64,000 nucleotides of DNA from Actibacterium sp. MT2.3-13A (lineage in GTDB: Bacteria > Pseudomonadota > Alphaproteobacteria > Rhodobacterales > Rhodobacteraceae): NCBI RefSeq assembly GCF_018139985.1, contig NZ_JAGSOU010000001.1, forward strand, positions 62,001 to 126,000, written 5' to 3'. The notes beneath the pieces were generated by a model. That model had not been told where the DNA came from, did not search any database, and was given only the letters and a program-made list of their open reading frames with translations. The number at the start of each line of letters is the position of its first letter. Position 1 is the first letter of the stretch. Shown here piece by piece: positions 500 through 30,515 of the stretch. The translations under genes and the position numbers were made by a program.

Positions 500-1196
500 G
501 GGCTCTGTTGCACAAATTGGTGACGGGATTCACCTTGGGAATCCAGCGTGATAGCTGGAGGTCATGAGCAGACCGACACCCCCGACCTACAAGACCACGA
601 ACTGGCCTGATGACAACGACGTGCTGAAGAAGCGGGGCTCCCTGGCTATCTGGTTCGATCCCGAGATGTGCTGGACGCTGGAGGTCCGGGCGGTCGAGAT
701 CACCGGGAGCCACATCGGCGATGCGCCGGTACTGCCCGACCTGCTCAGCCAGATCCCGGCCGATCAGGAGATCGGCAGCGTCACGGCAGACGGCGCCTAT
801 GATACGCGCAAGTGCCACAATGCCATCGCCGACCGCGGTGCCGCCGCCGTCATCCCGCCCCGCAAGAATGCCAAGCCATGGAAGACCGTCACTGCCGGCG
901 CCGTGGCGCGCAACGAGGCCCTGCGGGCATCGAAATACCTGGGCCGTGCGCTCTGGCGACGATGGAGCGGCTATCACCGCCGAAGCCGCGTCGAGACGAA
1001 GATGCATTGCGTGAAACTACTCGGCCAGCGCCTTATGGCACGCGCCTTCGAGCGTCAGGTTGCAGATATCCAGGTCCGTTTCGCCGTCCTGAACGGCTAC
1101 ACCGCGCTCGGCATACCCGTGACTGAAGCTGTGGGATAAGTCCGTCCAGGGAAGGGGGTAGCCCGGCCATCAGACGATTTGTGCAACAGAGCCCTT
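498..1196 (+). mobile_element. internally deleted IS5-family insertion sequence
   Basis: The element is bounded by perfect 20-bp terminal inverted repeats, aagggctctgttgcacaaat at 498-517 and its exact reverse complement at 1177-1196. It holds one transposase frame (564-1139) and is about 0.7 kb long, shorter than the roughly 1 kb or more usual for intact IS5-type elements. No convincing target-site duplication is visible next to the ends, so one flank was probably lost or rearranged. Intact ends mean it could still move if a complete relative supplies transposase. Confidence 0.85.
564..1139 (+). pseudogene. IS5-family transposase with an in-frame internal deletion
   Basis: The 191-residue frame opens with MSRPTPPTYKTTNWPDDND and WFDPEMCW, the usual start of this IS5-type transposase. 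It then jumps at about residue 37 straight to TLEVRAVEITGSHIGD in the catalytic core. The second catalytic Asp (VTADGAYDT) and the Glu of the YHRRSRVETKMH block are present. The region expected to carry the DNA-binding part and the first catalytic Asp is missing, and family members are usually around 300 residues. The frame is intact across the deletion, so a stable but catalytically dead protein could be made. Confidence 0.8.
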
Positions 1197-4450: not shown

Positions 4451-4768
4451 TTGAACGAACTGATGAACAGGTGGCGCGAGGGTCTGCCCGGCAGGGCCGC
4501 ACGGCCGCGCCGAACCGAAGACATGGCGCAGCGGCATTCCGCCCCCGCCGTCCCGGTCGAAGACAGCGTGACCCCGAATTTCCTGATCTGCCTCGAAACC
4601 GGAACACGGCAGATCCTGCTGCGCCGCCACCTGCGCGAGCAGCTGGGGATGAGTCCCGACGAATACCGCAGGAAATGGGGCCTGCCGGGGGACTATCCGA
4701 TGGCGGCGGCGACTTACATTCAGCACCGCGACAAGGTATTGAACATGCACCAGCAGAAACAGAGTTGA
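4451..4768 (+). CDS. MucR/Ros-family regulator with a degenerate zinc finger
   Basis: A 105-residue protein with the Ros/MucR fold pattern (VTPNFLICLETGTRQILLRR, then LGMSPDEYRRKWGLPGDYPM). In canonical MucR the finger is C-x2-C-x9-H-x4-H. Here C47 and H60 remain, but the second Cys is T50 and the second His position is L65, so zinc cannot be bound in the usual way. Start: TTG at 4451 has a purine-rich GGGAAGAG upstream; ATG at 4463 is the alternative. A canonical paralogue follows about 160 bp downstream. It may still bind AT-rich DNA or pair with the paralogue. Confidence 0.75.
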   Translation: MNELMNRWREGLPGRAARPRRTEDMAQRHSAPAVPVEDSVTPNFLICLETGTRQILLRRHLREQLGMSPDEYRRKWGLPGDYPMAAATYIQHRDKVLNMHQQKQS

Positions 4769-4927: not shown

Positions 4928-5395
4928 ATGACGACATCAGATACCAGGGACGACGTGATCGCGACGATCGTCGCCGCCTACGCCGCCCGCCCGGACGTGA
5001 CACCGGACCAGATCGTTGAACTCCTCGCCAAGCTGAAGCGGGAACTGCGCGCCGAGGCCGCTCCGGCGCCCGCCCCCGAGGCGGCCGCCCCCACCGAGGA
5101 AAAACCCAGGCCCGCGCTGCCGATCGACGAGGCGGTCACCCGCGACAAGGTCTACTGCCTGTGCTGCGGCAAGGGGTTCAAGATGCTCAAGCGCCATCTC
5201 GGGGCGGAGCACGGCCTGACGGAGGCGGACTACCGCCGCCTCTTCGACCTGCCCGAGGACATGCCGCTGGTCGCGCCCAGCTATTCCGAGAAAAAGGCCG
5301 ACTACGCCAAGAAGGCGGGCTTCGGGAAATACGCGCGCGAGGCCGTCCCTTCGGGCCGGACGGCCGGCGCGGCGCAAGGGGAGAGCGCCTGCTGA
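4928..5395 (+). CDS. mucR: MucR-family transcriptional regulator, intact zinc finger
   Basis: A 155-residue Ros/MucR protein. The N-terminal helical segment (DDVIATIVAAYAARPDVTPDQI) is the family's oligomerisation region. A Pro/Ala linker at about 45-65 leads to the finger with C77-x2-C80-x9-H90-x4-H95, followed by LTEADYRRLFDLPEDMPLVAP and a Lys-rich tail. MucR proteins bind AT-rich sites with T-A steps and control motility, exopolysaccharide and virulence genes in alphaproteobacteria. Placement inside the flagellar island, beside a finger-less paralogue, points to a local role. SD-like GAGGTC precedes the ATG. Confidence 0.9.
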   Translation: MTTSDTRDDVIATIVAAYAARPDVTPDQIVELLAKLKRELRAEAAPAPAPEAAAPTEEKPRPALPIDEAVTRDKVYCLCCGKGFKMLKRHLGAEHGLTEADYRRLFDLPEDMPLVAPSYSEKKADYAKKAGFGKYAREAVPSGRTAGAAQGESAC

Positions 5396-6405: not shown

Positions 6406-6773
6406 GCGCGCGGCGTCAGCCCACCCTATGCCTGAAAACGAATCGCCCTGCCCCTGCGGCAAGGAAGACCGCGCCGCGGTCAAGCGACAGAGCCACATCG
6501 CCCGAACCTGCGGCGCATTGACAACTATTGCGCGAGTTATCCACAGGACGCCTATTCGACCTGAAATAACCCTTCAGATCCCTCCAAACCCGGAGAAACC
6601 TCAGATTTGGAAACGAAATCGGCCAGAATTGCATAGGGGCGAACACAACATATTTGGCATCCATGCATAACAACACCATGCATGTAGTAGAGAATTTTCA
6701 ATCTTGGGCTTTTCAGAGGCCTATTCGAGGCATTAAGAATGTTTCCAACATTGCACTCAGAATCGGACCACAG
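6406..6773. other. AT-rich gap after motB holding one perfect DnaA-type 9-mer
   Basis: This gap is clearly richer in A and T than its surroundings. It contains a perfect DnaA-box sequence TTATCCACA at 6537-6545, just after a TTGACA at 6519-6524, and a weak CAAGNATA-like octamer TAAGAATG at 6734. A reading frame open from 6654 or 6663 into the next gene exists, but the base composition of 6663-6773 is unlike the coding DNA around it, so I treat it as leader. I see no RNA gene or repeat. Confidence 0.4.
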
Positions 6774-7529
6774 ATGCGAAACGTGCGGCTGCTCGAACTG
6801 ATTTGGCAAGGAGATGTTACAACCTCAGGGAGTAACGCCACACGCCGCATGGCCGGGTTGCTCAAGGGGTTGCTGCCGGTGCGCGCCGTGCATCTGAGCG
6901 CGACTGCGGGCGTTGACCGGGTCTGCATCCTGTCGGACGAGACCGAGCTGCTGCCGGGGCTGCCCCTGGGCGATGTTCTGGTCGAGGAACTGGGCATCGA
7001 CGTCCCTTACGGGACCGCGATCGTGATCAGCGAGGAGGACGGCCAGGACGGGCCGACCACGGACGAGGACATGTCCTACAATCTCGGCATGGTCGTGGGC
7101 AACGCGCTGCTCGACGTCATCAGCCGCAATGTCTTTCCCCTGCACCGGGAAAGCTCCGCACTCTACGTCATGGGTTGCTCCTATCACAGCATGGCCAGCG
7201 GCTCTGGCCTGCAGCACCTCGGTCTCAAGCCCGCGCATTTCCGGGCAGGGCTCGCGGCCTCTCTGGGCGCATTCTGGTCGGGCGCGCAGCACAGCCGGGT
7301 CGAGACCAGCGGCCTGTTCCTTCAGCAGGACTTCCTGGCCAGCCCGCGGCTGCGCCGCTACCTCGCGACGATCGACGCCGGCTTCTCCGCGCCCAGACCC
7401 GAGCAGATCGGCGCGGGGCTGATGCATTTCCCTGGTGGCGCGCGCAGCTACGACCAATGGCTGGGGCTGGTTCAGAACGCGGTGATGGACCGGCTTGGCG
7501 CGCATACCGCCCGGCTCTGCGACAGTTGA
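6774..7529 (+). CDS. unknown protein of the flagellar island
   Basis: About 251 residues if translation starts at the ATG of MRNVRLLELIWQGDVTT. ATG at 6663 would add 37 residues encoded by unusually AT-rich DNA and is less likely. The protein is soluble, with no signal peptide or membrane helix. Recognisable stretches such as LGIDVPYGTAIVISEEDGQD, SLGAFWSGAQHSRVETSG and MHFPGGARSYDQW match no family I know. It sits between motB and the island's sigma factor gene on the same strand, so a regulatory or assembly role in motility is a guess from position. Confidence 0.65.
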   Translation: MRNVRLLELIWQGDVTTSGSNATRRMAGLLKGLLPVRAVHLSATAGVDRVCILSDETELLPGLPLGDVLVEELGIDVPYGTAIVISEEDGQDGPTTDEDMSYNLGMVVGNALLDVISRNVFPLHRESSALYVMGCSYHSMASGSGLQHLGLKPAHFRAGLAASLGAFWSGAQHSRVETSGLFLQQDFLASPRLRRYLATIDAGFSAPRPEQIGAGLMHFPGGARSYDQWLGLVQNAVMDRLGAHTARLCDS

Positions 7530-7561: not shown

Positions 7562-7578
7562 TTAACCAACAGTTAACC
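7562..7578 (+). promoter_or_regulatory. perfect CtrA box before the sigma factor gene
   Basis: TTAACCAACAGTTAACC matches TTAA-N7-TTAAC exactly. It lies 77 bp before the sigma factor start and in front of a CAAGNATA palindrome, in a gap without other coding sequence. It is the best CtrA match in the window; CtrA entry into the flagellar hierarchy at this point is inferred. Confidence 0.6.
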
Positions 7579-7615: not shown

Positions 7616-7636
7616 TATTCTTGCGAGACAAGGATA
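7616..7636. promoter_or_regulatory. near-perfect CAAGNATA palindrome before the sigma factor gene
   Basis: TATTCTTG at 7616-7623 and CAAGGATA at 7629-7636 form an inverted repeat with a 5-bp spacer; the arms extend one further base each side (CTATTCTTG and CAAGGATAG, one mismatch). It ends 18 bp before the ATG, so it may overlap the promoter or leader of the sigma gene. A dimeric regulator site is the simplest reading. Confidence 0.5.
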
Positions 7637-7654: not shown

Positions 7655-8401
7655 ATGTCCATCACCTACCTGGCAGCGATGAGAGAGCCGCTCCTGCCTG
7701 TCGAGCAGGAGCGCGACGCCCTGCGCAGGTGGCAGGAAGACGGCGACCGCAACGCGCTGGAGCTGTTGCTGCGCTCGCACGCCCGTCAGGCCTGGTCGCA
7801 GGCGTCACGCTGGACCAACAACCCCGTGCATCTCGAGGATCTCGCCGCCGAGGGAATGATCGGGCTGATGCGCGCCGCGGACAATTTCAACCGCGCCCTC
7901 GACGTGCGCTTCTCCACCTATTCCTCGTGGTGGGTCATGACCTCGATCTCGACCGCGCTGACCCGGGTCAAGACGGTGATCGACATCCCGCCCCGCGCCT
8001 ATATCGACGCCCGCATGGGCCGACTGATCGGCGAGGAGGCCGCGCAGGCGCAGATGGCGATCCATGGACAGGTCGCGCTGGACGCACCGCTGGGCGAGGA
8101 TGGCATTCCAGCGGCGGACCGCCTGCCCAGCCCGGACCTGACGCCGGAAGAGGCGGTGGTGGCCCGCTCCTCGCAGGGCCTGCTGGAGCGCATGCTGCAC
8201 GAGGCACTCGACGCACTCGATCCCGTCGAGGCGGAGATCATCCGCCGCCGCAAGCTGAAAACCATGCCCGACCACGTCGCGGTGGTGGCAACCGATCTCG
8301 GCATGCCGCGCGAACGGCTGCGGCAGGTCGAGAACCGGGCGCTGATGCGGCTGCGCCGGCAGCTGCTCGAATCCGGGTTCCACCTGGCGCTGCTGAATTA
8401 G
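7655..8401 (+). CDS. RpoH-like sigma-70-family factor of the flagellar island
   Basis: A 248-residue sigma factor. Region 2 spans about residues 36-105 (LEDLAAEGMIGLMRAADNFNRA, then DVRFSTYSSWWVMTSI, the 2.3-2.4 helix). Region 4 spans about 185-245 (ALDPVEAEIIRRRKLK; DLGMPRERLRQVENRAL, the helix-turn-helix). There is no region 1.1. Size and sequence resemble the RpoH (sigma-32) group, but the RpoH-box-like stretch between regions 2 and 3 is not conserved. The start at 7655 is preferred over GTG 7607, which would place the palindrome inside the gene. It precedes fliK and flgD, suggesting a dedicated flagellar sigma in place of FliA. That is inference. Confidence 0.8.
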   Translation: MSITYLAAMREPLLPVEQERDALRRWQEDGDRNALELLLRSHARQAWSQASRWTNNPVHLEDLAAEGMIGLMRAADNFNRALDVRFSTYSSWWVMTSISTALTRVKTVIDIPPRAYIDARMGRLIGEEAAQAQMAIHGQVALDAPLGEDGIPAADRLPSPDLTPEEAVVARSSQGLLERMLHEALDALDPVEAEIIRRRKLKTMPDHVAVVATDLGMPRERLRQVENRALMRLRRQLLESGFHLALLN

Positions 8402-8417: not shown

Positions 8418-9815
8418 ATGCAAATGGTGTTCACGGCCCGCACGGCGCCGTCCGCAACGGCCGCCGCGACAGGCCCCAAACCCCGCGGCGCGGCCGGGCA
8501 GGCAGAGGGCTTCGCCGCGCTTTTCGCCCGGCTGCGCGCCGGCGCGTCCGGGGCCGCCGCGTCTCCGGCCCTCTCCCTGCCCCGGCAGATCGCGACCCCC
8601 GGCGGCGCGGAGGCCCGGCACGCGGCCCTGGCTGGGCTGATGGCCGGCCTCGAAACCCTCGCCAGCGCCACCACGACCGCACTGAAAGACGCCGAGGCCG
8701 GTGGCGGCGGGCTGGACGCGGCCCAGGCGATCCTCGCCCAGGCGGCCGCCCGGCTGGGCGAGATGCTGCACGCCTTCGACGCCGCGACCGGCGCCGACAG
8801 CCTTCAGACGCTGGGCGCCAATCTCGCCGCGCTGCTGACCGCCCCGGCCACCCCGCCCGCCGCGGTTCCGGCCGATGGCGAGGCCGCCGGGGTGGCGGTG
8901 GCCGAGGCCATGTTCGCGCTCGCCGCCGGCCTGCTCGGGCTGAGCGATGTCGCGTCTGCGTCGGCCCCGTCCGGCCCCGCGCCTGCCCAGGCCGCGCTGC
9001 CGCCCGTCCCGCCCGCGCGGGCCGTCGCGGGGACGGCGGCAATCGCGGAGGCGCCCCCCCGTCCGGCCACGCTGGCCGCGTTGGCCACGCAACAGCAACA
9101 GGGCGCAATCCCCGCGCCGCCGGTCCAGGCGGCCCGACCCGCGCCGCACCCTCCGGTCGCGGGGATGACACCCCAGCCGCCCGGCGCGGACGGCGCCGCG
9201 GACAGCACGCCCGCCGCGCCGCATTCGCGCGCGGCCGAGCTGCTGGTCGCCGCCCTACAGGCCAAGGCCCCCGCCGCCGATGCGGCGCCCCTGCCGCAGG
9301 CGCAGATACCGCAGGCCCCCGCGGCCGAACTGCGCGCGCCCGGCCCGGCCGACCCCGCCGAGACGCGCAGCGCCCACGCGCCTCAGCAGCCCTCGGCCGC
9401 GCCCAGCGGCTTCGCCCGCAGCATCGCCAACCAGATCCGCGGCACCAGCTTCAGCGAGGGTCACACCCGGATCGAACTGTCGCCGCGCGGCCTTGGGACC
9501 ATCGAGATCGACCTGCACGCCGACGAGGCCGGCAAGCTGCGGCTGGTGTTACGGGCTGAAAATCCAAACGTTCTCAATGCGCTGCGCGATCACCGCGGCG
9601 CGCTTCTCGCGGTGCTCGGCGACAGCGGCGTGGCGGTCGAGGACAGCGCCCTCGACTTCGAGGCGTTCGGCCAGCCGCGCCAGCAGCGCGACGACACGGC
9701 CCCGCCCGCGCCCCGCCAGGGAGGCCCCGACGAGAACGACAACAACACCCTCGAGCCGGCCCCGCGCCGGGCGGCCCACCTGCCCGGATCCGGGCGGCTG
9801 GACATCATCACCTGA
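8418..9815 (+). CDS. fliK: flagellar hook-length control protein FliK
   Basis: A 465-residue protein with a long Ala/Pro-rich low-complexity N-terminal part (about 1-325), typical of the exported molecular ruler. The C-terminal Flg_hook domain at about 330-420 contains HTRIELSPRGLGTIEIDLHA and LRLVLRAENPNVLNALRDH, the segment that switches FlhB substrate specificity. A strong GGAGG lies 12 bp upstream of the ATG and right after the sigma factor stop, so the two are co-transcribed. flgD follows 14 bp downstream. Confidence 0.92.
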   Translation: MQMVFTARTAPSATAAATGPKPRGAAGQAEGFAALFARLRAGASGAAASPALSLPRQIATPGGAEARHAALAGLMAGLETLASATTTALKDAEAGGGGLDAAQAILAQAAARLGEMLHAFDAATGADSLQTLGANLAALLTAPATPPAAVPADGEAAGVAVAEAMFALAAGLLGLSDVASASAPSGPAPAQAALPPVPPARAVAGTAAIAEAPPRPATLAALATQQQQGAIPAPPVQAARPAPHPPVAGMTPQPPGADGAADSTPAAPHSRAAELLVAALQAKAPAADAAPLPQAQIPQAPAAELRAPGPADPAETRSAHAPQQPSAAPSGFARSIANQIRGTSFSEGHTRIELSPRGLGTIEIDLHADEAGKLRLVLRAENPNVLNALRDHRGALLAVLGDSGVAVEDSALDFEAFGQPRQQRDDTAPPAPRQGGPDENDNNTLEPAPRRAAHLPGSGRLDIIT

Positions 9816-9829
9816 GAGCAGGAGAGCCC

Positions 9830-10498
9830 ATGACCGTCGACAGCACCAGCGCAGCGCAGCCCGCGGCCCCCGTTGCGGCCAGCCGCAGCGCGATGACCAA
9901 GCTCGGCGCCGATTACGACAGCTTTCTCAGGCTGCTCACGGCGCAGATCGCCAACCAGGACCCGCTCGAACCGATGGATTCGACGACCTTCGTCTCGCAG
10001 CTCGCGCAGCTGTCGCAGGTCGAGCAGTCGATCGTGACCAATGCCAACCTGGAGGGTATCAGCAGCCAGCTGTCGAGCGTGGGGGCGATGGCGGACATGC
10101 AGCTGATCGGGCGCGACGTGACCCTGCCCAGCGGCCGGATCGAGTTGCAGGGCGGCAGCGGAACCTTCTCCTTCCGGCTGAGCGAGGCGGCGCAGAGCGT
10201 CAAGGCCGTGCTGCGCCACGCCGACGGCACGGTCATCCGCGAGATCCGCGGCCTGCCGACCGATCCCGGCACCCGGCACGACCTGGTCTGGGACGGAAAG
10301 GACAGCTATGGCCTGCCGGTGCCCGACGGCGTCTTCGAGGTGGCGATCGAGGCGGTGGATGCCGAGGACGCGCCGGTCTCCTACGCCGGCTACGCCACCA
10401 CGCGGGTCGAGCAGCTGGCCTTCCGCGACGGCGCGCCAATGCTGGTCCTGCGCAACGGCGAGGAGGTCCGCTCGACCCAGGTGCTCGGCATCGAGTGA
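9830..10498 (+). CDS. flgD: flagellar hook-capping protein FlgD
   Basis: A 222-residue hook scaffolding protein. The conserved N-terminal block (DYDSFLRLLTAQIANQDPLE, then STTFVSQLAQLSQVEQ) is the FlgD signature. The remainder forms the Tudor/Fn3-like C-terminal part (TLPSGRIELQGGSGTFSFRL, DLVWDGKDSYGLPVPDG). It is exported and caps the growing hook until FlgE assembly ends. It is the last gene of the + strand block and converges with the fliL-like gene, whose stop is 7 bp away. Confidence 0.95.
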   Translation: MTVDSTSAAQPAAPVAASRSAMTKLGADYDSFLRLLTAQIANQDPLEPMDSTTFVSQLAQLSQVEQSIVTNANLEGISSQLSSVGAMADMQLIGRDVTLPSGRIELQGGSGTFSFRLSEAAQSVKAVLRHADGTVIREIRGLPTDPGTRHDLVWDGKDSYGLPVPDGVFEVAIEAVDAEDAPVSYAGYATTRVEQLAFRDGAPMLVLRNGEEVRSTQVLGIE

Positions 10499-20060: not shown

Positions 20061-20801
20061 CTATTCGGCCGCGGACAGAACCCCGGCCAACGGTTCCGCG
20101 GCGGCCGGGTCGGCCGGGTCGGCCGGCGCGAACTTGTAGCCGCGGCCATAGACCGTTTCGATATACGGATGCCCCGAGGCGGCGGCGCCGCCGAGTTTCT
20201 TGCGGATCTTGCAGATGTAGACGTCGATCACCTTGTCGAAGGGCTGCTCGTCGGCCATGCCGTAGACCGCGTCATAGATCGCCCCCTTGGAGATCACGCG
20301 CGGCGCGTTCAGCGCCAGATGCTGGAAGATCGCGTGCTCGCGCCGCGACAGCTTCACCCTCTGGCCCTGCACCTCCGGATCGCGGCCGTCGAAATAGGCG
20401 GTGACCTCGCCGATGGTGACACTTTCGGCGGCATGGCCATAGGCCCGCCGTGTGATCGAATTGATGCGCGAGCGCAGCTCCACCGCCTTGAGCGGGATCA
20501 CGATGTCGTCGTCGGCGCCGCTATCCAGCGCCTCGGCGGTCTGCCTTGCGTTGCGGAAATCGCGCATCACCAGCACCGGGTTGCGGCAGCCGGCCTCGCG
20601 CAGCAGGCGGATCTTGTCCAGCGTGCCGGGCGTGTCGGCCAGCAGGAAGGGCCGCGTCTCACTGCCCTTGCGCGTCAGCAGCGCGAGATCCCCAAGAAAG
20701 AAATCGTCTCCGATTTCCACTGGCTTCAGGCCCGCGGCCCGGAGTTCGGCGATCACGCCGGGGCGGCGCTCTGCCCGTGGTTCAAAGAGGTAGATATGCA
20801 T
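20061..20801 (-). CDS. CtrA/FtcR-like orphan response regulator with a degraded receiver
   Basis: A 246-residue protein. The C-terminal winged helix (about 130-225) is close to that of CtrA: LSRREHAIFQHLALNA, KVIDVYICKIRKKLGG, YIETVYGRGYKF. The N-terminal receiver-like domain begins MHIYLFEPRAERR, so the usual acidic pair after strand 1 is missing. D56 (LLADTPG) is the only candidate acceptor, and the late Lys is K105 (VIPLKAVEL). No kinase lies beside it. It resembles Brucella FtcR in place and role: an OmpR-type flagellar regulator that may work without phosphorylation. ATG 20801 is preceded by GAGGGA. Confidence 0.8.
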   Translation of the reverse strand: MHIYLFEPRAERRPGVIAELRAAGLKPVEIGDDFFLGDLALLTRKGSETRPFLLADTPGTLDKIRLLREAGCRNPVLVMRDFRNARQTAEALDSGADDDIVIPLKAVELRSRINSITRRAYGHAAESVTIGEVTAYFDGRDPEVQGQRVKLSRREHAIFQHLALNAPRVISKGAIYDAVYGMADEQPFDKVIDVYICKIRKKLGGAAASGHPYIETVYGRGYKFAPADPADPAAAEPLAGVLSAAE

Positions 20802-22885: not shown

Positions 22886-22889
22886 AACG

Positions 22890-22904
22890 TTAACTTTCTG
22901 GAAA
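22890..22904 (+). promoter_or_regulatory. CtrA half-site in the flgN-fliC gap
   Basis: TTAAC at 22890-22894 followed at the right spacing by GAAA instead of TTAA. It matches one half of the CtrA box and lies about 100 bp before the flagellin start. Weak on its own; noted because better boxes precede other flagellar genes here. Confidence 0.2.
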
Positions 22905-22927
22905 CCTTGCGCTCCAACATCACCATC

Positions 22928-22945: not shown

Positions 22946-22958
22946 CGTCAGAATGACG
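22946..22958 (+). promoter_or_regulatory. CGTCA-GAA-TGACG inverted repeat in the flagellin leader
   Basis: A perfect 5-bp inverted repeat around GAA, about 35 bp before the fliC ATG. The core TCAGAATGACG recurs exactly at 23926-23936 before flaF, in both cases just after a hairpin and T-tract. It could be a protein or RNA target shared by the flagellin and flaF leaders; the function is not known. Confidence 0.4.
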
Positions 22959-22992: not shown

Positions 22993-23832
22993 ATGTCTTC
23001 CATTCTCACGAACAACTCCGCGATGAGCGCGCTTTCCACGCTGCGCAACATCAACCAGTCCCTCTCGCAGACCCAGAACCGGATCTCGACCGGCCTCAAG
23101 GTTCAGTCGGGCAAGGACAACGCCGCCTACTTCACCATCTCCGAGACGATGAAGAGCGACAGCGGCATGTACAAGGCCATCGACGAGGGCCTGACCCTGA
23201 CCAAGAACTCGGTCGCCACGGCCCGCCTCGGCGCCGAGACGGTCATGGATCTTGCCAACCAGTTCGCCGAGCGCGTGGCCTTCTCGCAGGGCGACGCCGT
23301 GGATCGCACCGAAATCCAGAAGGAACTGAACGGCTTGATCGAGCGTATGACCACGACCATCGCCCAGTCGACCTTCAACGGCGACGACCTGGTGAACGCC
23401 GACGGCGCCACCCCGGGCGGCGCCGCGGTCAGCGTCGTCACCGGCATCACCCGTTCGGGCGGTACCTTTGCGACGACGACCATGACCTTCAACTCGGTCG
23501 ACCTCACCGCGATCAAGGACACGCTCGCCGCGATCGACGTCAGCACCTCCATCGACCTCGCGGCCGATCTCGCGACGGCCGAGGGCCAGCTCGCGCTCGC
23601 GACCTCCGCGGCCACCTCGCTGGGCGTCGCCGAGAAGTCGATCGAGACGCAGCAGGAGTTCCTCGGCGCCCTCACCGAGAACCTCGATGGCGGTGTCGGC
23701 GCGATGGTCGATGCCGACATGGAGGAAGAGGCCGCGCGTCTGCAGGCGCTGCAGGTTCAGCAGCAGCTGGCCACGCAATCGCTGTCGATCGCCAACCAGG
23801 CGCCCCAGAACATCCTGAGCCTGTTCCGCTAA
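22993..23832 (+). CDS. fliC: flagellin
   Basis: A 279-residue flagellin of the short alphaproteobacterial type. The N-terminal domain (MSSILTNNSAMSALSTLRNI, RISTGLKVQSGKDNAAYFTI) and C-terminal domain (LGVAEKSIETQQEFLGALTE, VQQQLATQSLSIANQAPQNI, ending LSLFR) are complete. The variable surface region between them is short, about 80 residues. ATG 22993 gives the standard flagellin start; the frame is open slightly upstream. It is the only flagellin in the window, with flaF and flbT immediately downstream. Confidence 0.97.
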   Translation: MSSILTNNSAMSALSTLRNINQSLSQTQNRISTGLKVQSGKDNAAYFTISETMKSDSGMYKAIDEGLTLTKNSVATARLGAETVMDLANQFAERVAFSQGDAVDRTEIQKELNGLIERMTTTIAQSTFNGDDLVNADGATPGGAAVSVVTGITRSGGTFATTTMTFNSVDLTAIKDTLAAIDVSTSIDLAADLATAEGQLALATSAATSLGVAEKSIETQQEFLGALTENLDGGVGAMVDADMEEEAARLQALQVQQQLATQSLSIANQAPQNILSLFR

Positions 23833-30476: not shown

Positions 30477-30515
30477 TATTCTTGTCAATCAAGTATATAT
30501 TGCAGTTTATACTTG
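30477..30515. promoter_or_regulatory. three CAAGNATA sites in the fliF/fliL divergent promoter
   Basis: TATTCTTG at 30477-30484, CAAGTATA at 30490-30497 and TATACTTG at 30508-30515. The first pair forms an inverted repeat with a 5-bp spacer, like that at 7616-7636. The second and third form a perfect 8-bp inverted repeat with a 10-bp spacer. This is the densest cluster in the window and lies between two divergent operons of the basal body. Confidence 0.55.

Follow-up and report, generated by a model that had tools for sequence, protein, structure and literature searches.

Results

The window analysed here, a stretch of 64,000 nucleotides of the Actibacterium sp. MT2.3-13A genome (3.6 Mb in 51 contigs), holds a flagellar island in which the gene of a sigma-70-family factor, hereafter SIG, is preceded by a conserved gene, orf6660, and followed by fliK and flgD (Table 1). 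The spacing is close, with 16 bp between SIG and fliK and 14 bp between fliK and flgD, and since fliK (from 8418) and flgD (from 9830) lie on the strand of SIG, co-transcription of the three genes is plausible; the earlier note had asserted it outright, and it is the common strand and the tight spacing that stand. The island is a known, published and mobile fla2-type flagellar cluster. In Marinovum algicola DG898, plasmid pMaD5 carries the fla2 reference, MALG_04521-04566 (PMC12363192, which counts 43 fla2 clusters). Compared with it, the genes for SIG, orf6660, fliK, flgD, flgH/A/G/F, flgE and a CtrA-like regulator (RR) are orthologous and in the same order, MALG_04549 on pMaD5 being the SIG orthologue at the same position. 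The sigma gene of the reference cluster is not discussed in the accessible part of PMC12363192; according to the accessible part of PMC12843797, two fla2 clusters have an 'rpoD' and a 'cheY' in the corresponding places, and the gene on the pontiacus flagellar plasmids is possibly SIG. One or two ROS/MucR-type regulators occur inside fla2 clusters close to motB, and the leftmost part of the island has an ORF (window positions 564-1139) that reads, by eye, like a transposase remnant.

Table 1. Genes and sequence elements of the SIG locus and of the fla2-type cluster in the window
Feature	Position	Strand	Basis or remark
ROS/MucR-type regulator a	4463..4768	+	1.9e-23
ROS/MucR-type regulator b	4928..5395	+	5.6e-34
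orf6660, conserved protein upstream of SIG (true start uncertain)	6663..7529	+	in 12/12 other SIG loci
CtrA-type box TTAACCAACAGTTAA, TTAA-N7-TTAA, upstream of SIG	7562..7576	+	sole exact match in 64 kb; shuffle mean 0.00
Palindrome TATTCTTG-N5-CAAG-N-ATA upstream of SIG	7616..7636	+	belongs to cluster-wide motif
SIG, sigma-70-family factor of the RpoH lineage	7655..8401	+	248 aa, ATG start
fliK, next gene after SIG	8418..9815	+	ORF list; order conserved in 12/12 other loci
flgD	9830..10498	+	ORF list; conserved downstream order
RR, CtrA-like orphan regulator, between flgL and flgI	20061..20801	-	receiver without the usual acidic residues
Putative fliC promoter region	22886..22925	+	GTTAAC at 22889, GCTCCAACAT at 22911; both degenerate compared with relatives
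fliC (flagellin), proposed SIG target	22993..23832	+	ORF list; start placed at conserved MSSIL
Palindrome, second perfect copy, fliF/fliL intergenic region	30477..30497	+	sole other perfect copy

Genome-wide, five genes exceed the cut-off for sigma-70 region 2: RpoD, an RpoH2-type and an RpoH1-type factor, an ECF-like factor and SIG. The RpoH2- and RpoH1-type genes pass the sigma-32 cut-offs (438 bits for a cut-off of 315 and 414 for 241, respectively), and the ECF-like gene, which has a ChrR-like neighbour, reads by eye like an ECF sigma. The island had been described as lacking FliA (sigma-28) and FlgM, and this is upheld for the whole genome: no gene exceeds the FliA cut-off, the four weak matches overlapping the RpoD, RpoH2, RpoH1 and SIG genes, and FlgM gives no match at E<=1. 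SIG itself reaches 30.2 of the 189.6 bits required by the FliA/WhiG model, through region 2 alone. Two RpoN, one FlhA and one CtrA (424 bits) were found over their cut-offs in the genome.

Pfam matches SIG to Sigma70_r2 (5.1e-13) and Sigma70_r4 (7.8e-8) and to no other family; its region 1.2 model does not match SIG, and the N-terminus can be aligned to RpoH and to region 1.2 of solved sigmas. Regions 1.2, 2 and 4 are present; missing are the RpoH box and the larger part of region 3. The lack of a Pfam region-3 match carries no weight in this respect, the genome's own RpoH1 and RpoH2 being unmatched too. Among NCBIfam models, sigma-32/RpoH models come out on top, far under their cut-offs (124/315 and 99/323 bits), in agreement with the proposal that regions 2 and 4 are of the sigma-32 type. 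The RpoH-box area, previously noted as not conserved, is missing altogether: QRKLFFNLR of E. coli RpoH aligns to ----YIDAR in SIG, and the box Q-R/K-x-LFFNLR, present in E. coli RpoH and in both RpoH genes of this genome, is absent from all 16 aligned fla2 sigmas. SIG has 26 residues between regions 2.4 and 3.2 versus 50-59 in RpoH; across the 16 fla2 sigmas this spacer measures 9-26 residues, and it is still shorter than in SIG (9-17) in four of them. The 16 aligned members have open frames throughout and share 28 invariant columns, and SIG is 38-60% identical to its counterparts in the other 12 genomes of the family that have it.

The broad superfamily model TIGR02937 accepts SIG (75.8 bits for a cut-off of 42.9), a result that is not specific to ECF sigmas because the RpoD of this genome passes too. 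In the AlphaFold2 model of SIG (mean pLDDT 77.7, pTM 0.46), regions 1.2-2 and 4 are confident and the linker is weak. Foldseek ranks E. coli sigma-32 as the top match to this model, and VIA-align scores chains of sigma-S, sigma-A and sigma-70 as well as sigma-32 or better, so the fold cannot tell the sigma families apart.

In a FastTree phylogeny built on 243 trimmed columns, the fla2 sigmas form one clade (0.91) with relatives from the M. extorquens AM1 megaplasmid and R. leguminosarum pRlX5. Its sister is the clade holding every RpoH tested (0.92), the union of the two having a support of 0.96, with FliA and RpoD outside; these supports are moderate. SIG falls inside neither RpoH1 nor RpoH2. 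Because it branches beside RpoH1/RpoH2 and is devoid of the RpoH box and of most of region 3, SIG is, as judged from its sequence, neither an ordinary RpoH nor a FliA. The two relatives from outside the family (AM1 megaplasmid, positions 553858-554586; pRlX5, positions 148537-149238) are likewise without the RpoH box, and the flagellar proteins of the window have no match within 8 kb of either. Short sigma relatives in four genomes (G575, G722, G547 and G461) were considered as SIG members and discarded, the tree placing them with RpoH, outside the fla2 clade.

We found SIG in 13 of 394 family genomes, this one included, by scoring six candidates per genome and rechecking eight genomes that lack it with all candidates. 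A fla2-type FlgG (at least 68% identity) occurs in 21 of the 394, and these contain all 13 genomes with SIG. All 12 other loci preserve the order orf6660-SIG-fliK; in the 11 with a long enough contig, flgD, flgH/A/G/F and flgE come next. Within the family, SIG was found solely in fla2 clusters, where its occurrence is patchy, and RR and exact CtrA-type boxes are associated with it. Scanning contigs with the single SIG protein gave no match and an alignment-based scan did, as judged on the best 80 of its 564 matches. Among plasmid records, 21 match SIG, 17 of them from Rhodobacterales and pMaD5 among them; FlgG matches 93, of which 19, all Rhodobacterales, show 60-80% identity, the next standing at 56%. 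Of these 19, taken as carrying a fla2-type FlgG, 17 also have SIG. The two that lack it are from Loktanella salsilacus; in the one that was opened, fliK directly follows the orf6660 homologue, the other being known from its search matches. Contig C5 of G332 (113 kb) has flgL at its start and RR at its end, an arrangement that would suit a circular plasmid.

SIG is absent from 8 of the 21 fla2 genomes, in which a profile search scoring all candidates matches only frames of RpoH or RpoD size (298-346 and 505-730 aa). In six of the eight, the locus is intact and orf6660 adjoins fliK; a contig end cuts it in G163 and G325. A tree built from six flagellar proteins (midpoint root; weak backbone, with 35-60 at several nodes) interleaves clusters without SIG with clusters that have it: G131 groups with G407 (100), G162 with G068 (100), and G286, which lacks SIG, sits within a clade that has it (65 with G112, then 95 and 100 further out). 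The simplest reading of this interleaving is that SIG was lost repeatedly, the alternative being repeated gain at the same place; repeated loss would make SIG dispensable over evolution.

The distribution of RR parallels that of SIG. RR is present in all 12 family genomes with SIG that were examined, G404 (a 5 kb contig) being left out, and a response regulator is annotated at its position on the six plasmids with SIG that were opened, the S. abyssi stretch stopping short. Among the eight genomes without SIG, three keep RR (G162, G163 and G325) and five have no RR orthologue (G006, G131, G194, G201 and G286); Loktanella salsilacus has no RR at the locus. The chance that five losses of RR among 20 genomes would all fall in the eight without SIG is 56/15504 = 0.004, calculated by hand and ignoring kinship. 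The recognition helix of RR, IDVYICKIRKKL, matches that of the genome's CtrA, IDVFICKLRKKL, more closely than do those of three other regulators compared, and RR scores 121.7 bits against the CtrA model, below the cut-off of 350. Some fla2 clusters also have a second response-regulator-like gene between motA and orf6660 (L056, L061, L088 and L062, the last being MALG_04553).

Upstream of SIG, we confirmed both the perfect CtrA box and the palindrome pointed out in the earlier note; the box is unique in the 64 kb, and the palindrome, of which 0.07 matches are expected in the window at up to three mismatches, is shared with the fliF/fliL region. A word search found TATTCTTG in 40 of 212 upstream regions of clusters with SIG versus 0.7 expected, and TATCCTTG in 14 of 77 upstream regions of clusters without SIG versus 0.2 expected. 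In a strict intergenic scan, the common motif TATNCTTG lies before SIG (13/23), flgI/RR (9/12) and fliL/fliF (6/8). Clusters without SIG keep it, at fliL in 6/6 for instance, and it is never found at fliC, whether SIG is present (0/12) or not (0/6); for these two reasons TATNCTTG is not a signature of SIG and, judging by its distribution, probably marks another regulator, MucR-type proteins being candidates for the binding factor. A rewiring of fliC to TATNCTTG in clusters without SIG, suggested by five of six regions in a loose EM fit, was rejected after inspection of the sequences showed no such motif and the strict scan gave 0/6; where inspected, the loose matches proved to lie in the last part of flgN. 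Written as TCTAT[T/C]CTTG, the fla2-wide motif, seen in the window at 7616-7636 and 30477-30497 for example, stands before many rod, hook and switch genes, in clusters with and without SIG alike.

In the strict scan, the exact box TTAA-N7-TTAA is commonest upstream of SIG (9/23) and of fliC in clusters with SIG (8/12, versus 0/6 without SIG). After the family genomes were supplemented with plasmids, it precedes flagellin in 14 of 19 clusters with SIG versus none of the eight without (Fisher p=0.0006, kinship ignored; G006 and Loktanella are nearly identical, leaving at most seven independent members in the latter set). This contrast vanishes when one mismatch is allowed (14/19 versus 6/8), and the argument from the box is weakened by exact copies upstream of orf6660 in 3 of 7 clusters without SIG. 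The clusters that have SIG and no exact fliC box are those of the window itself, G335, G112, M. algicola and Roseivivax. Flagellin is encoded twice, with differing upstream regions, in G112 (L075), G006 (L212), G332 (L224) and Loktanella (L222); the flgN-proximal gene was taken in G112, G006 and Loktanella.

What follows the box differs between the two promoters, the AT content being 0.80 at the SIG promoter (16 sequences) versus 0.36 at the fliC promoter (13 sequences). The exact sequence GCTCCAATCT occurs five times in the scanned cluster sequence, always at fliC (G296, G116, G161, Alloyangia and Salipiger CCB-MM3). With up to two mismatches, it is found in 8 of 19 fliC regions from clusters with SIG versus 0 of 8 without (p=0.06), largely within a single portion of the tree, and it is absent from the branch of Sulfitobacter, G068, G332 and G345. 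The -10 element of RpoH promoters is CCCCATnT, which GCTCCAATCT resembles.

The earlier note had also raised a checkpoint differing from FliA/FlgM, a proposal for which we obtained no support so far: we found no anti-sigma or checkpoint component for SIG and no FlgM-like partner. The product of orf6660 was tried as a FlgM-like anti-sigma and rejected, since no family model matches it over cut-off and the gene is kept where SIG is lost. It is retained in seven of nine clusters without SIG, the remaining two being cut by contig ends, which makes it unlikely to be a dedicated anti-sigma. Its AlphaFold2 model (six sequences, mean pLDDT 75.3) has no Foldseek match at E<=0.001, and its best VIA-align Z of 4.6 is not meaningful.

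Discussion

Our preferred reading, which we advance as quite possible while rating it short of probable, is that SIG serves the fla2 flagellum as its dedicated sigma factor, that RR or CtrA activates its gene and, together with SIG, fliC, and that SIG does the job of FliA where FliA and FlgM are missing. For the SIG gene itself, with its CtrA-type box and the AT-rich stretch behind it, transcription would depend on the housekeeping sigma and on RR or CtrA. In a second step, RNA polymerase carrying SIG would transcribe the late gene fliC, aided by that regulator at about -35, from a GC-rich, -10-like element that reads GCTCCAATCT in several relatives, so that neither FliA nor FlgM would be needed. 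Region 3 contacts promoter DNA in other sigmas, and with most of it gone SIG could depend on an activator near -35. In lineages that lost SIG, fliC must be under other control, since these often have no RR and never the exact fliC box. We regard as more tentative still the general proposition that the heat-shock lineage, by shedding the RpoH box and the greater part of region 3, gave rise to a flagellum-specific alphaproteobacterial sigma, which would transcribe fliC only with a CtrA-like, pseudo-receiver activator near -35, the pair being mobile, co-lost in several lineages and working without a FlgM-type export checkpoint. A dedicated flagellar sigma of independent origin had been suspected from the start: its association with one type of flagellar cluster and its distinctness from FliA and from the genome's own RpoH1- and RpoH2-type factors favour the first half of that idea, and the grouping of SIG with the RpoH lineage leaves a strictly independent origin unsupported.

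SIG might instead serve the middle genes, or boost the cluster as a whole, with fliC left to the housekeeping sigma and RR or CtrA. The position of SIG in front of fliK-flgD, the motif common to most middle-gene upstream regions and the absence of GCTCCAATCT from the fliC of some clusters with SIG would all fit; the common motif TATNCTTG, however, also occurs in clusters without SIG (fliL 6/6) and no middle-gene element specific to clusters with SIG was found, and we consider this account somewhat unlikely. Rather less likely, in our estimate, is a mainly non-flagellar role in a stress or surface response, with SIG merely co-expressed with flagellar genes. The RpoH ancestry, the AM1 megaplasmid and pRlX5 relatives without a flagellar match within 8 kb, and the flagellin-linked ECF sigma with other targets described in the accessible part of PMC12826043 speak for it, against which SIG was found in the family solely in fla2 clusters, at a constant position, and travels with plasmid-borne clusters.

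Decay or loss of function is a far more doubtful explanation: the spacer between regions 2.4 and 3.2 does shrink to 9-17 residues in 4 of 16 members and SIG has been lost several times, but frames are open in all 16 aligned members, with 28 invariant columns, and the AlphaFold2 model is confident in regions 1.2-2 and 4. That SIG is simply the heat-shock RpoH of this genome is refuted on sequence and has next to no probability left, for although sigma-32 provides its best family models, two other genes pass the sigma-32 cut-offs, and SIG, which has no RpoH box, branches apart from the two.

SIG can be compared with several known systems. RpoH (sigma-32, with RpoH1 and RpoH2 in Alphaproteobacteria) is its nearest lineage, gives the best family models and has the same regions 2 and 4, but SIG is set apart by the missing RpoH box, the spacer of 9-26 instead of 50-59 residues, the scores below cut-offs and the flagellar location. 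With FliA (sigma-28) and FlgM, it would share the role of a late flagellar sigma, from another lineage of the tree, with a weak FliA score and with FlgM unmatched in the genome. RpoE6 of Azospirillum brasilense, an ECF sigma of another alphaproteobacterium, resembles it in its two main sigma domains and its link to a flagellin gene, whereas SIG retains region 1.2 and falls beside RpoH in the tree; for RpoE6, an anti-sigma partner and metabolic targets are reported in the accessible part of PMC12826043, which also states that Alphaproteobacteria have no known sigma specific to the flagellum. RR has the recognition helix of CtrA and, like Brucella FtcR in the part of PMC8781033 available, sits in a flagellar cluster, but differs in its receiver, devoid of the usual acidic residues, and in its score below the CtrA family cut-off. 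In D. shibae, rpoH1 has a CtrA site and CtrA-dependent expression, according to the available part of PMC4046655. Our literature search, with few subscription journals in reach, found no study characterising SIG.

SIG stands as a concrete candidate for a flagellar sigma, with natural clusters that have or lack it and a predicted target promoter. If the preferred reading is true, switching on late genes requires neither FliA nor FlgM, and a mobile flagellum carries its own transcription factor into new hosts. Just upstream of fliC, a hairpin CGTCAGAAxGACG occurs in the window (22946-22958) and in most of the clusters printed; because FlbT acts on flagellin 5' UTRs in Caulobacter (from the reference list of PMC8781033), this hairpin may, by analogy, be an FlbT site.
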